DNA from: a virus
DNA length: 64,000 bases
IMG/VR virus record: IMGVR_UViG_3300025949_000019
Span: 33,539-97,538 of that record
Direction: 5' to 3' (one strand)
The notes beneath the pieces are model-generated. The model was not told the DNA's origin and did no database searches. It was given only the letters and a program-made list of their open reading frames with translations. This document shows, one piece after another, positions 2,744 to 55,883 of the stretch (position 1 is the stretch's first letter; every line of letters starts with the position of its first letter). A program made the translations under genes and the position numbers.

Positions 2744-3382
2744 ATGCCAGGAGCAGCACGAACGTACAAAAATTACATGATCAAATTTCCCAATGAAAAA
2801 GTTTATGTGGGCTATACTTCAACCAGTATGGAAGATAGGCGTAAAGCTCACAAGAGGGATATGAAGTTAAATAGACCCGTATCAAATGCTCTCAAGAAGT
2901 ATGGATTTGAAAATGTAAATTGGCAAATCATTGCGGAGTTTGATAATGAGCATGATGCTCTAGAAAATGAAAAGAAGTTAATTGAAGAATACAATTCTAG
3001 AGACATAAATTTTGGATATAATGTGTCTGTTGGAGGTGAAACTTTTCCAACCGGTTTTAATGGATCATATTGGATGGAAGGAAAAACTGAAGCTGAAATT
3101 AAATCGATTAATAAGAAGAAGGGAAAACCAGGCGAAACAAATCCATTTTACGGTAAGAAACATTCAAAAGAGTCTATGGATAAGATGGTAGCTAAAAGAC
3201 GAGCTAGTGGTTCTTATGATATCCCATCTTGCTCCATCCCTATAATTTATGACGGAATAGAATATAAAACTAAGAGTCATATGAGGCGTGCTACCGGTAT
3301 AAGTAGAAATAAACAAAACAAATTAATATCAGAAGGAATTGCTACATTGAAAGCTCAGATCAATGGTAAGGAGGTTAACTAA
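2744..3382 (+). CDS. GIY-YIG homing endonuclease with NUMOD3 motif
   Basis: The N-terminal domain has the GIY-YIG pattern in variant form: NYMIKF, then EKVYVGYTS about ten residues on, followed by a Arg in MEDRRKAH and a Glu-rich stretch ending ENEKKLIEEY. Residues about 125-148 (GETNPFYGKKHSKESMDKM) match the NUMOD3 DNA-binding motif common in homing endonucleases, and the last 45 residues look like a further small DNA-binding module. The first six residues, MPGAAR, copy the start of the PAAR protein that follows (MPGASR), so the gene appears to have been inserted at the PAAR start and to use its old initiation site. Its stop codon TAA overlaps the PAAR ATG by one base. Confidence 0.88.
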   Translation: MPGAARTYKNYMIKFPNEKVYVGYTSTSMEDRRKAHKRDMKLNRPVSNALKKYGFENVNWQIIAEFDNEHDALENEKKLIEEYNSRDINFGYNVSVGGETFPTGFNGSYWMEGKTEAEIKSINKKKGKPGETNPFYGKKHSKESMDKMVAKRRASGSYDIPSCSIPIIYDGIEYKTKSHMRRATGISRNKQNKLISEGIATLKAQINGKEVN

Positions 3383-3428
3383 TGCCCGGGGCATCTCGTT
3401 TTGGCGATCTTTGCTCTGGGCATTAGTT
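3377..3428 (+). repeat. Inverted repeat covering the PAAR start codon and the in-gene UAG
   Basis: Bases 3377-3387 (AACTAATGCCC) are the exact reverse complement of 3418-3428 (GGGCATTAGTT). Pairing continues inward through 3388-3393 with 3412-3417 if two G-U pairs are allowed, giving a 17-bp RNA stem with an 18-nt loop. The PAAR AUG pairs with the CAU before the UAG stop. The Shine-Dalgarno sequence lies just outside the stem. Five of the outer pairs exist only because of the 10-nt insertion. Confidence 0.75.
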
Positions 3429-3676
3429 GCCATGGTTGTTATCCGTCACGTCCAAACATCTCCGCATCAGATGATGTGTTTGTAAATGATATTGGTTCTC
3501 ACAGGGTTTCTGACCAGTGGGACGTTCATTGTTGCAAGCTTTGTCACGGCGGGTCCACGATAGAGGGTTCGCCAGATGTGTTTGTGAATGACCTGCCAAA
3601 GGCACGCATTGGTGATGCAGTTGATTGTGGTTCAATGATTCTAGAAGGTTCCGATGACGTATTGGTGAATGAATGA
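3382..3676 (+). CDS. PAAR spike-tip protein, reading frame interrupted by a 10-nt insert
   Basis: Translation from ATG 3382 gives MPGASRFGDLCSGH and then UAG at 3424. The rest of a typical PAAR protein (GCYPSRPNISASDDVF, HCCKLCHGG, two more VFVN/VLVN repeats) continues in another frame from 3434 to the stop at 3676. Joining CAT 3421-3423 directly to GGT 3434 restores the usual PAAR core GDLCSGHGCYPSRPN, so exactly 10 nt (3424-3433) are extra. A perfect Shine-Dalgarno AAGGAGGT ends 6 nt before ATG 3382. The second part shows no further damage and overlaps the next gene by 4 nt. The product would sharpen the gp5 spike. It is either a recent pseudogene, a sequencing or assembly error, or a gene read through by ribosome bypassing (see findings). 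Confidence 0.8.
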
Positions 3677-49570: not shown

Positions 49571-50128
49571 ATGACAACTCCTGCATTCAAATCACAACCG
49601 GACAATCAAAACAACTCGCAACCAACGCGATTTAAGATGATTTTTCCTCGCGGTCCGAACTTCACGTTCTGGTGCCAGTCTGTGATTTTGCCGTCCTTAA
49701 CAATGTCCTACTATACGTCACCTACGCCATTTGTAGACCAAAAGGTTCCGGGTGATAAACTTGTCTATGACGATTTGCTTGCGACTATTCTGGTTGACGA
49801 AGATTTGCAGACATGGAGAGAAATCCACAATTGGATACGTGGTATGACATTTCCAACCGATTTTGCGGAATATAGAAACTTAAACAAACTCTCAGAAGTG
49901 CTGAAACATAGTTCTACTGCACGTCCGCAGTATGCAGATATGCACATCATAATCTACAATAACAACTGGCAACCAATTCTGCTTTGGAAATTCATTGATG
50001 CATTTCCGATCATGCTAGGCCAATTGTCATACTCTGCATCGGACGGTCCAGATAGCACAATGATTACTGATGTGACGTTTGCGTATCAGTATTTTGATGT
50101 TGAGATAATGGATCAGAGCGTTGCATAA
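49571..50128 (+). CDS. Tail-tube-fold protein, possibly tube initiator or cap
   Basis: FTFWCQSVILPSLTMSYYTS, TPFVDQKVPGDKLVYDDLLA and TILVDEDLQTWREIHNWIRG follow the gp19 superfamily pattern, with LPSL-like loop and a D-E-D-L-x-x-W helix as in the tail tube protein. The C-terminus DVTFAYQYFDVEIM is also tube-like. A second, diverged tube-fold gene in a T4-like phage is most simply the tube initiator (gp54) or a cap protein, but the exact role is not decided by sequence. It is the last + strand gene before the convergent - strand block, and its final 65 nt overlap the macro-domain gene. Confidence 0.72.
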   Translation: MTTPAFKSQPDNQNNSQPTRFKMIFPRGPNFTFWCQSVILPSLTMSYYTSPTPFVDQKVPGDKLVYDDLLATILVDEDLQTWREIHNWIRGMTFPTDFAEYRNLNKLSEVLKHSSTARPQYADMHIIIYNNNWQPILLWKFIDAFPIMLGQLSYSASDGPDSTMITDVTFAYQYFDVEIMDQSVA

Positions 50129-50582
50129 TGCAGCAGTAGCCGGTTTCTTTTCCTAGTCTGTGGTTTATGATTGTTTTTATTACATCCCAATTTCCACCTC
50201 CCAAGCCAGACCCTATTGCTGGAAAATAGATATTAAGATATTCCAAACCCTTTCCAATTCGCCATTGCATGAATCTTTCAAAGCACTTATCAATGGCGTC
50301 ATATGACACATACTTCCGACCGTCGCGCCCATAGTTTTCTTGAACATAAGCATGAACAACATATAATTCCGGCGCAACTTCAACAACTATACAACGTCCC
50401 AATAGTTCTGCTGGCTTTCCTAGATGATTTAGTGTTTCGTTTCTGTATGGATCGAAGATCATTGGAAATTTATCTCTCAATGCTTGAGCAACACCAGCGC
50501 CCATTACACCTTGGCAATTGACACCGTGAACTATGATGCCTCTACTAATACTTGTTATATCACATTCTTTGTACTCAATCAT
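50064..50582 (-). CDS. Macro-domain protein (ADP-ribose binding or hydrolase)
   Basis: CDITSISRGIIVHGVNCQGV, MGAGVAQALRDKFP and YFPAIGSGLGGGNWDVI are the classical macro-domain ligand loops. Such proteins bind or hydrolyse ADP-ribose derivatives, for example ADP-ribose-1''-phosphate or ADP-ribosylated targets. The last 20 or so residues (QRSDPLSQHQNTDTQTSH) are read antisense through the 3' end of the tail protein gene and look like an extension rather than part of the fold. The start overlaps the stop of the 50-residue membrane protein (ATGA). In a phage it could reverse host ADP-ribosylation defence or recycle ADP-ribose. Confidence 0.88.
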   Translation of the reverse strand: MIEYKECDITSISRGIIVHGVNCQGVMGAGVAQALRDKFPMIFDPYRNETLNHLGKPAELLGRCIVVEVAPELYVVHAYVQENYGRDGRKYVSYDAIDKCFERFMQWRIGKGLEYLNIYFPAIGSGLGGGNWDVIKTIINHRLGKETGYCCIMQRSDPLSQHQNTDTQTSHQ

Positions 50583-53073: not shown

Positions 53074-53727
53074 TTATTTTCCGGCAAAGACGTTGTAGAA
53101 TTTCTTGTATTTTTTCAACAACTTCCTTTGTTTGCCACGTTCCCAATCCAAGACTTCGCGTTTGACTTTCGTTGTGAATAGAATTCCATTCAAGTGATCT
53201 AGTTCGTGCTGGAAAACCTTGGCATCCATGTCTGTCAATTCTAGGACGATTTCGTTTTCTTCTTCATCATAGAATTGAACCTTGACTGATTTTGGTCGTT
53301 TGATCTGAAGTGCAAGACCCGGGAAGGATAAACATCCCTCACGTTTTGCAGTTACTTCATCGGAAGCTTCAATGATCTTCGGGTTGTAGCAAACCAACGT
53401 TTCTGTTCTCTTTGCTGCTGCAACATCGATTCTATCCATGACAAACATTCTTGTCTTATAACCAACTTGACATGCAGATAGACCAACACCACCTGTTCCG
53501 CGCATTGTATCTGTCATTGCATCTGCAAAGGCTTTTCTATCTTCGTATGACTCACAACCGAAATCATATTCTGGCAAGACTTCTTTCAAGACAGGATGAA
53601 AATCTGCTACCAATGAAAGTTTTGGTTTTGGTTTGACCTCGGTTACAGCCGAAGGTGTAAAGACTAATTCATCTTCTTCTACTTCGGGTGTTAGAACTGC
53701 TGATTGTTGATTTGCTGGTGTTTGCAT
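53074..53727 (-). CDS. def: Peptide deformylase
   Basis: The three deformylase motifs are complete: GVGLSACQVG (motif 1), EGCLSFPG (motif 2, metal Cys) and QHELDHLNG (motif 3, HExxH-type with catalytic Glu). Residues 1-45 form a low-complexity N-terminal extension before the catalytic domain (FHPVLKEVLPEYDFGCE), which is unusual for bacterial enzymes of about 170 residues. It removes formyl groups from new proteins; phage versions are known in cyanophages and some other T4-like phages. It follows gp46 directly (stop of gp46 and deformylase start are adjacent). Confidence 0.95.
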   Translation of the reverse strand: MQTPANQQSAVLTPEVEEDELVFTPSAVTEVKPKPKLSLVADFHPVLKEVLPEYDFGCESYEDRKAFADAMTDTMRGTGGVGLSACQVGYKTRMFVMDRIDVAAAKRTETLVCYNPKIIEASDEVTAKREGCLSFPGLALQIKRPKSVKVQFYDEEENEIVLELTDMDAKVFQHELDHLNGILFTTKVKREVLDWERGKQRKLLKKYKKFYNVFAGK

Positions 53728-55440
53728 TTATATAATCCTCGAATAGTTACCAACGCGCTCAAATTTTACTACTGACTTGAATTTGTCCTGCAAGATATCA
53801 CCTCTATGCGATATCACAAACAAATTGCATTTCTCCAATGAGTGTAGAAGTTTCGTTAGATATTCTACGCCCTGTGCATCCAAAGAGGAATCGAAGATTT
53901 CATCGAGTATCAGTATGTTGGTCGCTACGCTATTTTTCAATTTAGCGATTTCGCGCCATGTGAGCATTAAACTCATGTCGATTTTCTGCTTCTCTCCCTC
54001 AGAAAAATTCTCGTAGGAAAATTCATCCCTATAACGAGATTTAATAACTTCCTTGAATGTTTCATCTAGTTCAAAATTAACAAAGAAGTCTTGTTCTGCA
54101 AGATACTTATTCACCAATTTATTGATGATCGGTAGATATTGTTTAATGATTCTAGACTTGATTCCGTTGTCTTTTAGTAATTGACCAACGATATCATAGT
54201 GTGCTTTTGAGTTTAGCAATTCTTCCCTAGATTCTTCCAACAGGACTAATTTCTCCTGTAGATCAGCTAATTCGGTTGAGATAGCATCTAGATCACCTTT
54301 TGCCTTTGTTAGCTGATTCTTCTTTTTCTCATAATCAAGCAAGACTTTGGTCAGGACTCCGACCTCAGATAACATCAATGAATTTGATGAATTCAATGCC
54401 GCAATCTCTCGTTCTTTTTGTTCGATTGCTTTGATGCTAACTTGCAACATCTTCATCTTGTCTTCCAGCATTTTAAGACCATTTTTATATTGTTGCTGGC
54501 GACGTTCGAAATAATCTAGTTTCTTCTGTTTCTTTTCCTCAGTGATGCTAGCATCGCATGTAGGACATGTCTCGGTGGAAATCCAGAAATTGATATCTGT
54601 ATTAGCCTTATTTAGGTTTGATTCAATTCCAACTAAAAATCCCTCGGACTTTTTCAATTTGTCCGCGTAACCTTGCTTGGCTTGTAGGTCTTCTGACCCC
54701 AACATACTCTTTACCTTTAATTCTTGTATCTTGACCAGTTTTTGTAATTTTTTGATCCGTTCGTTGGTGTCTTCGATCTTTTCTTCAATGTCATCTATTT
54801 CCTTTTGTTTGTTTTTCTGAAGTTCTGCTAGATGCTTTTCTTTGATATCAGATTCCTTTTTCACCAATTGTTCTTCATGCTTGTTTTCAACGATCTTTTG
54901 ATCGACTCCATCAATTCTAGATTTCAGTAGCTTATTCATTGTGGAGAATATCTGAATGTCCAAAATATCCTCGATGATTGCTCTGCGATCAGCGGCCTTC
55001 AATTGCATGAATGGTGTAAAGTTTGCATTGCCCAAAACAACAACCTGCGTGAACGTCTTTCTATTCCAGCGAAGAATGAATGTCTCAAGATATTCCTGAT
55101 AGTCAATCTTGCCCGGCTGATCTATTAACTTGCCATCCTTGTAGATTTCAAACAAAGCAGGCTTCATTCCACGAATGACTTTGTATTTGTTTGTTCCGAT
55201 GACAAACTCCGATTCAGTTACTAAATCCGATCCATTGATCGAATTGACCAATGTCGGAAGATTGATGTTTCTGAATGGCTTGCCAAATAGGTTATAGCAC
55301 AATGCATCCAAGATTGTAGACTTGCCAGCACCGTTCTCACCTATGATTAGCGTGTTGTCTGTTTTGTCTAGTTTAATCTCAGTGAAGGCTGATCCTGTGC
55401 TCAGGAAATTCTTCCATCTGATTGTAGTAAATTTGATCAT
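53728..55440 (-). CDS. 46: Recombination nuclease subunit gp46 (SbcC/Rad50-like)
   Basis: I choose ATG 55440, which gives MIKFTTIRWKNFLSTGSAFT, the usual gp46 start, and overlaps the HNH gene by 4 nt; a TTG-type upstream start would only add residues read from the HNH gene. Walker A is IIGENGAGKSTILDAL, the zinc-hook-like Cys pair is CPTCDASI near residue 290 flanked by long coiled coils, the signature is NFSEGEKQKIDMSLML and Walker B is NILILDEIFDSSLD. With gp47 it forms the nuclease complex that resects DNA ends for recombination-dependent replication. Confidence 0.94.
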   Translation of the reverse strand: MIKFTTIRWKNFLSTGSAFTEIKLDKTDNTLIIGENGAGKSTILDALCYNLFGKPFRNINLPTLVNSINGSDLVTESEFVIGTNKYKVIRGMKPALFEIYKDGKLIDQPGKIDYQEYLETFILRWNRKTFTQVVVLGNANFTPFMQLKAADRRAIIEDILDIQIFSTMNKLLKSRIDGVDQKIVENKHEEQLVKKESDIKEKHLAELQKNKQKEIDDIEEKIEDTNERIKKLQKLVKIQELKVKSMLGSEDLQAKQGYADKLKKSEGFLVGIESNLNKANTDINFWISTETCPTCDASITEEKKQKKLDYFERRQQQYKNGLKMLEDKMKMLQVSIKAIEQKEREIAALNSSNSLMLSEVGVLTKVLLDYEKKKNQLTKAKGDLDAISTELADLQEKLVLLEESREELLNSKAHYDIVGQLLKDNGIKSRIIKQYLPIINKLVNKYLAEQDFFVNFELDETFKEVIKSRYRDEFSYENFSEGEKQKIDMSLMLTWREIAKLKNSVATNILILDEIFDSSLDAQGVEYLTKLLHSLEKCNLFVISHRGDILQDKFKSVVKFERVGNYSRII

Positions 55441-55883
55441 TGTTGTTGATGCTCTTTTAAATAATCTATACACTTATAAAACAAATTAATATCATCCTTT
55501 AAAAGTCCTAAGGCTGTATTGCAATTAGAACACAACAATTTTCTAATTTTGTTTGTTTTATGGTCGTGATCAATATGAGAATAGCCACCATCTTCTTTTT
55601 TACTGTAAAACTTATTTGCGATTGTTTTATGGCAAATATAACAACATCCATTCTGGCTTTCATACATAGAAAGATAGTCGTTTTCCGTTAAGCCTATAAA
55701 TTTTAAATCTTGTAATGCCTTACGTTTTTTAATTGTTCCCTTTGGTAGATTTTTAGCATAAGCTTTCATGCACGAAATACATTTCGTTTGATATTTCCAA
55801 TCCCCATTGGGATTTTGGCTATGGCGCCAAAATTTATCTAATTTCAACCTTTTCTTACAACCACAACATTTCTTCATCATCAT
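55437..55883 (-). CDS. HNH endonuclease of endonuclease VII type, inserted between gp47 and gp46
   Basis: The N-terminus has a Cys2-Cys2 element (KKCCGCKKRLKLDKFWRH, then TKCISCMKAYAK). The catalytic region is CCYICHKTIANK, then YSHIDHDHKTNKIRKLLCSN and CNTALGLLKDD, matching the endonuclease VII-type HNH fold. Both ends overlap the neighbours by ATGA (stop of gp47 with its ATG, its stop with the gp46 ATG). In T4, gp46 and gp47 are close neighbours with small genes between, so this is probably a homing-type endonuclease that landed exactly in the junction. A role as the phage Holliday-junction resolvase is an alternative. Confidence 0.85.
   Translation of the reverse strand: MMMKKCCGCKKRLKLDKFWRHSQNPNGDWKYQTKCISCMKAYAKNLPKGTIKKRKALQDLKFIGLTENDYLSMYESQNGCCYICHKTIANKFYSKKEDGGYSHIDHDHKTNKIRKLLCSNCNTALGLLKDDINLFYKCIDYLKEHQQQ

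Follow-up and report, generated by a model that had tools for sequence, protein, structure and literature searches.

The window, a stretch of 64,000 nucleotides within an IMG/VR record of 97.5 kb, contains a T4-like tail cluster composed of hub, endonuclease, PAAR, gp25-like and gp6-like genes, in that order. The window terminase is nearest (ca. 45%) to those of T4-like phages of cyanobacteria, Methylophilales and Pelagibacter, and the PAAR gene is the needle tip gene of an uncultured T4-like phage. Elsewhere in the window, on the minus strand, an ORF similar to recombination endonuclease VII (55437-55883; PF02945, E 1.4e-19), possibly a homing gene, sits between two genes that look like gp46 and gp47 on inspection. 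Also recognized by eye on that strand are a macrodomain-like protein (50064-50582) and a peptide-deformylase-like protein (53074-53727). The long genes adjoining PAAR are intact. The features of the PAAR region are:

996-2738: tail lysozyme hub gene, part of the tail cluster
2744-3382, plus strand: GIY-YIG/NUMOD3 homing endonuclease ORF (PF01541, PF07460, phrog_314)
3377-3393, plus strand: 5′ arm of the hairpin, AACTAATGCCCGGGGCA, with the PAAR start codon (RNA fold -36 kcal/mol, z -5.6)
3382-3426, plus strand: 5′ piece of PAAR, MPGASRFGDLCSGH followed by TAG (from the letters and the ORF translation)
3412-3428, plus strand: 3′ arm of the hairpin, TGCTCTGGGCATTAGTT, covering the stop and the codon that precedes it (predicted fold)
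3421-3423, plus strand: CAT, the last codon before the stop and candidate take-off codon
3424-3433, plus strand: 10-nt insert TAGTTGCCAT as compared to intact PAARs, holding the stop TAG; also in contig L002
3434-3676, plus strand: 3′ piece of PAAR, GCYPSRPN..., without further stops or frameshifts
3′ of PAAR: gp25-like and gp6-like genes, named by eye

From its start at 3382 the PAAR reading frame runs for 14 codons to a TAG (3424-3426), and 10 nt further on it continues in another frame. Its N-terminus aligns by eye with the consensus MPxxxRxGDxC[TS]GH of intact PAARs, of which the closest are about 60-64% identical. The TAG is followed by TTGC, a second CAT (3431-3433, the candidate landing codon) and GGT TGT TAT; the insert can equally be placed as GCATTAGTTG at 3420-3429. 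The first-pass annotation had described this anatomy, with identical take-off and landing codons, a UAG directly after the former, an intact downstream coding sequence and a normal PAAR core on removal of 10 nt, and all of this was borne out. The letters and coordinates agree, joining CAT to CAT gives the exact junction of the family, and the 3′ piece is open to 3676. The latter matches PF05488 (E 2.4e-10, 40.9 bits against a curated cut-off of 27) and phrog_281 of the PHROGs collection (E 1e-20) and retains all 19 invariant columns of an alignment of 11 PAARs (A1). In its profile match, its conserved residues and its place among hub, gp25-like and gp6-like genes the protein resembles the PAAR tip gp5.4 of T4, from which it differs in that its frame is interrupted right after GDLCSGH. 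The same insert, for which a search in related phages had been proposed, was found in L002, a separately catalogued contig from IMG dataset 3300005563 with 4140 of 4142 bases identical (99.95%), so the insert is not a single-contig artefact. A second, intact PAAR, which had also been put forward as a check, was not found in the record of the window, which is possibly incomplete.

The start of PAAR lies in a strong predicted hairpin. Its fold energy was equalled by none of 200 shuffled sequences, and the PAAR start region is the most structured among those of 46 genes in the window (runner-up -24.3, median -8.4). Codons M1-P2 (ATGCCC) are complementary to G13-H14 (GGGCAT), giving a 12-bp hairpin. 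The 17-bp hairpin of the first-pass annotation (3377-3393 with 3412-3428) does join start and take-off codon, but two of its pairs are G.U and 15 are Watson-Crick. The placement of the stop in the loop of a small GGCA/TGCC hairpin did not hold: in the predicted fold this hairpin is a competing alternative to the long stem, in which the UAG pairs with the CUA preceding the start codon. The stem should hinder PAAR initiation, as judged from the modeled fold, and translation of the endonuclease down to the shared TAATG could open it.

The hairpin also offers a source for the insert. The sequence GGGCATTAGTT (3418-3428), which spans the insert, is the exact reverse complement, over 11 nt, of AACTAATGCCC (3377-3387), and the chance that a random 10-nt insert lengthens the stem by 5 bp is 0.0009. 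During replication, the nascent strand could have folded back after TCTGG and the polymerase could have switched to the other hairpin arm, copying AACTAATGC to GCATTAGTT there and then rejoining its template one base back, which would yield the entire 10-nt insert. On this account the start codon would have been copied into the first CAT, as its complement, and the preceding CTA likewise into TAG, and the second CAT would be the His codon that was there originally. Because of the exact complementarity, CAT, TAG and repeated CAT would stem from one event, and with a single template switch the features reminiscent of T4 gene 60 are, in the window, no independent coincidences. The quasi-palindrome alternative that had been listed among the other explanations accounts for the whole insert in one step. 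Quasi-palindrome template switching is established as a source of mutations in both E. coli and yeast (PMC7202029, PMC3820800), and the window insert resembles such mutations in that it lies at the stem foot and is exactly complementary to the arm opposite (PMC3820800, PMC7202029, PMC8604942).

A second broken PAAR was found by searches with the downstream part of PAAR alone, which do not presuppose an intact 5′ end and which yielded 45, 80 and 80 phage loci and 80 genome loci. It belongs to a distantly related phage lineage of three contigs from two datasets (L016-L018, the same as L048-L050) with 5 differences in 12,900 bases, here called L018. This PAAR, 54% identical to that of the window, reads MPSVHRLGDFCTGHG, then TAA CTA, then GGT TGT TTC. 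The junction (CAT-GGT, TAA-CTA, GGT-TGT) shows a cut at the same place as in the window, with 15 residues before the stop, an insert of 9 nt and the codon GGT both before the stop and before the resume codon. A single recoded stop codon for both phages was rejected, as the stops differ (TAG in the window, TAA in L018). None of the bootstrap trees united the two broken genes and intact relatives were nearer to L018, in a tree that is weakly resolved and in which both broken genes are long branches; by this tree, two origins of the break are needed. The strain pairs differ at 2 sites (window and L002) and 5 sites (L018 lineage), none of them within PAAR.

The PAAR start regions of the window and L018 fold nearly alike: a 12-nt segment that begins with ATGCCC pairs with one that ends in GGGCAT, and these 12-bp stems enclose a small inner stem in the predicted fold. 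Between these two sequences, all 12 pairs are kept, one of them altered on both sides. Scored on the 42-nt stretch that runs from the ATG through the His codon, L018 (-24.4) and the window (-23.2) rank first and second of 49 related 5′ ends, the third scoring -15.4; both known cuts are thus at the stem foot in the two genes with the most stable stems. In the larger survey of 5′ ends the sole lower score is that of an out-of-frame match in L218. Synonymous recoding with each phage's own codon usage reached the stability of the window stem in 10 of 20000 cases and that of L018 in none of 20000. The codon GGG serves 1 of 93 glycines in L018, the one within the PAAR stem, and such rare codons suggest selection on the stem itself or its past homogenisation. 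With a probability of at most 0.002 that the start codon is unpaired (predicted fold), it is buried in both phages, and little PAAR is therefore to be expected. In L018, a 19-codon ORF recognized by eye (2916-2975, MNNLEKLIGEYHAQCTPIR) overlaps the PAAR start and ends within the hairpin loop; it could open the PAAR stem. A search of L018 and L002 against Rfam gave no known RNA families.

Further cases were sought among 175 distinct 5′ ends, a few of which are spurious frame matches. Of 123 surveyed PAARs, 80 have GC immediately after GH, and an interruption that a hop would restore occurs only in the broken genes of the window and L018. Scans of IMG/VR for GH-TAG, GH-TAA, GHG-TAR and the hairpin followed by GC[YF]P returned only these two lineages or unrelated DNA, and scanning for the exact L018 junction recovered no contigs other than the three of that lineage. 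Apart from the window and L018 types, early stops in the PAAR frame were found in two of the 175 5′ ends: L269 (Bacillota MAG), where TGA (3004-3006), perhaps a nonsense mutation or a selenocysteine codon, replaces the conserved Cys codon of GHGC, the spot of both cuts, and L273 (Azotobacter chroococcum), with an in-frame stop 24 codons past the GH motif. In Listeria phage LIS04 (L312, 853-1563) the PAAR halves lie about 400 nt apart inside one annotated CDS of 711 nt, an internal insertion that is perhaps a domain. A literature search on PAAR bypass gave nothing relevant.

The gene upstream of PAAR encodes, as had been supposed, a homing endonuclease. Its ORF matches PF01541 (30.9 bits, cut-off 22.6), PF07460 (25.0 bits, cut-off 20.4) and phrog_314 (E 3e-28), so that both a GIY-YIG domain and a DNA-binding motif, NUMOD3, are predicted. 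Its stop codon TAA overlaps the PAAR start codon (TAATG), and its own start, MPGAAR, mimics that of PAAR: ATGCCAGGAGCAGCACG (2744-2760) is a near-copy of ATGCCCGGGGCATCTCG (3382-3398). It looks as if the endonuclease had inserted behind codon 6 of PAAR, retaining the original start and re-creating a second one. No homologues of this endonuclease were found beside the other PAARs fetched. In Campylobacter phage CP81 (L047), PAAR is likewise preceded directly by an endonuclease gene, hef-1, with an overlap of 17 nt at the PAAR start; the layout resembles that of the window, but the endonuclease is unrelated.

It is improbable, in our estimate, that the insert is a scar of homing that destroys a cleavage site in PAAR and persists for the immunity it gives, irrespective of PAAR production. 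The position of the endonuclease with its copy of the PAAR start, the overlap of hef-1 with PAAR in CP81 and the precedent of T4 gene 60, where the 50-nt gap is thought to destroy the MobA site (PMC5009743), are in line with it. So is a match between the two phages: the L018 insert GGTTAACTA (2992-3000) equals the nine bases preceding the window PAAR start (3373-3381), occurs once in the window and once in L018, and would by our own estimate, made after the fact, arise by chance with a probability of roughly 0.2%. However, L018 has no endonuclease beside PAAR and no GIY-YIG gene in its records, an insert that kills the frame is a costly immunity, and the template-switch fit requires no cleavage. 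Other forms of recoding appear highly improbable. A +1 frameshift before TAG or internal initiation at TTG 3401 in the window, or TAA readthrough in L018, would give a PAAR with three extra residues or an altered N-terminus. The +1 frame of the window is continuous from TTG 3401, as MAIFALGISCHGCYPSR, and the L018 insert is a multiple of three, but each phage would require a separate mechanism, the extra residues would fall in the conserved metal-binding tip GHGC, and a known frameshift motif is absent. An assembly or amplification artefact at the hairpin, raised in the first annotation, is hardly credible. Hairpins provoke template switching in vitro too, but the window insert recurs in a contig that differs elsewhere, the L018 type of lesion is present in three contigs from two datasets, and the neighboring long genes are intact.

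A translational stop-hop that is used by the phage is possible, if rather unlikely. The peptidyl-tRNA (His in the window, Gly in L018) would release, the mRNA would slip by 10 or 9 nt and an identical codon would be re-paired, with the 5′ stem slowing or repositioning the ribosome, giving family-consensus PAAR in small but sufficient amounts. On paper the window works like such a site: matched codons flank the gap in both phages (CAT/CAT and GGT/GGT), and a hop gives the exact family junction in each. The two origins, with a stop straight after a repeated codon in each and with strong stems at one and the same codon position, and the unusual codon choice in the stem also favor a hop. Stop-hops across matched codons function in synthetic E. 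coli constructs (PMC5009743), which likewise have identical codons flanking a stop within 9-12 nt, whereas the window and L018 are natural genes with a longer gap and a strong 5′ stem. Low efficiency may be enough, given that T4 has one gp5.4 for each gp5 trimer (PMC7600766), although a T6SS needs its PAAR (PMC10715212). We regard it as rather unlikely that natural stop-hops evolved in phage PAAR genes at least twice, built of a start-to-take-off hairpin, a stop that follows at once and a matched codon for landing 9-10 nt further on, and workable as about one PAAR per virion is needed. All window features follow from one mutation, and the IMG/VR scans hold no third case. The resemblance to T4 gene 60 with mobA is close: there, too, a repeated codon flanks the gap with UAG right after the first, a stem-loop involves the take-off codon, reading resumes out of frame and a homing endonuclease adjoins (PMC5009743, PMC3014915). 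A stop directly 3′ of the take-off codon is likewise present in both phages (TAG and TAA). The gap, however, is 50 nt in gene 60 and 10 (window) or 9 nt (L018) here, and the window insert is explicable by one template switch. The nascent-peptide signal of gene 60 comprises 25-30 residues before the P site (PMC5009743), and 14 residues in the window or 15 in L018 leave no room for it; with only 14 residues before the stop, a true gene-60-type bypass is unlikely in the window PAAR. Judged from the geometry, the 3′ arm of the stem ends at the take-off codon and would be inside the ribosome at take-off, so that the stem could not zip up behind it. The landing CAT (3431) is preceded by ATTAGTTGC, without GAG or GGAG, and lacks a Shine-Dalgarno-like word about 6 nt before it, an element of only modest effect in gene 60. 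Since defining features tested are lacking, we do not file the window as a gene-60-type bypass. The original bypass idea has gained a second, independently broken PAAR with stop, repeated codon and hairpin, and has lost ground in that a template switch suffices and parts of gene 60 are missing.

Both cuts are most simply read as mutations caused by the hairpin, despite their close resemblance to a ribosome hop. That the window carries a hairpin-driven lesion, with PAAR off or nearly so, at trace level, is a proposition for which we consider the case about evenly balanced. Start-codon hairpins would make this codon a breakage hot spot, which may be why L018 is cut at the same codon. PAAR would now probably be absent or present in trace amounts only, from ribosomes that hop over the stop or read through it; as each virion is tipped by one PAAR, such amounts could be enough. 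The template-switch fit covers the window only: no inverted template was found near the 9-nt insert of L018, and this insert, though untemplated, has an immediate stop and a matched codon, which speaks against a lesion. Against it, and for a hop that is used, are also two features that a dead phage gene would not usually show: both broken ORFs are otherwise intact and conserved, and each break is common to slightly different sister contigs.

Since natural ribosome hops are very rare, every good candidate counts. If L018 is a true stop-hop, it would be a natural example of the in-frame form, of which the review of the field knew no case (PMC5009743). If the cuts are mutations, they cleanly illustrate how a start-codon hairpin can break the gene that carries it in phages that are unrelated, and they would show that a phage can tolerate losing all or nearly all of a virion part.
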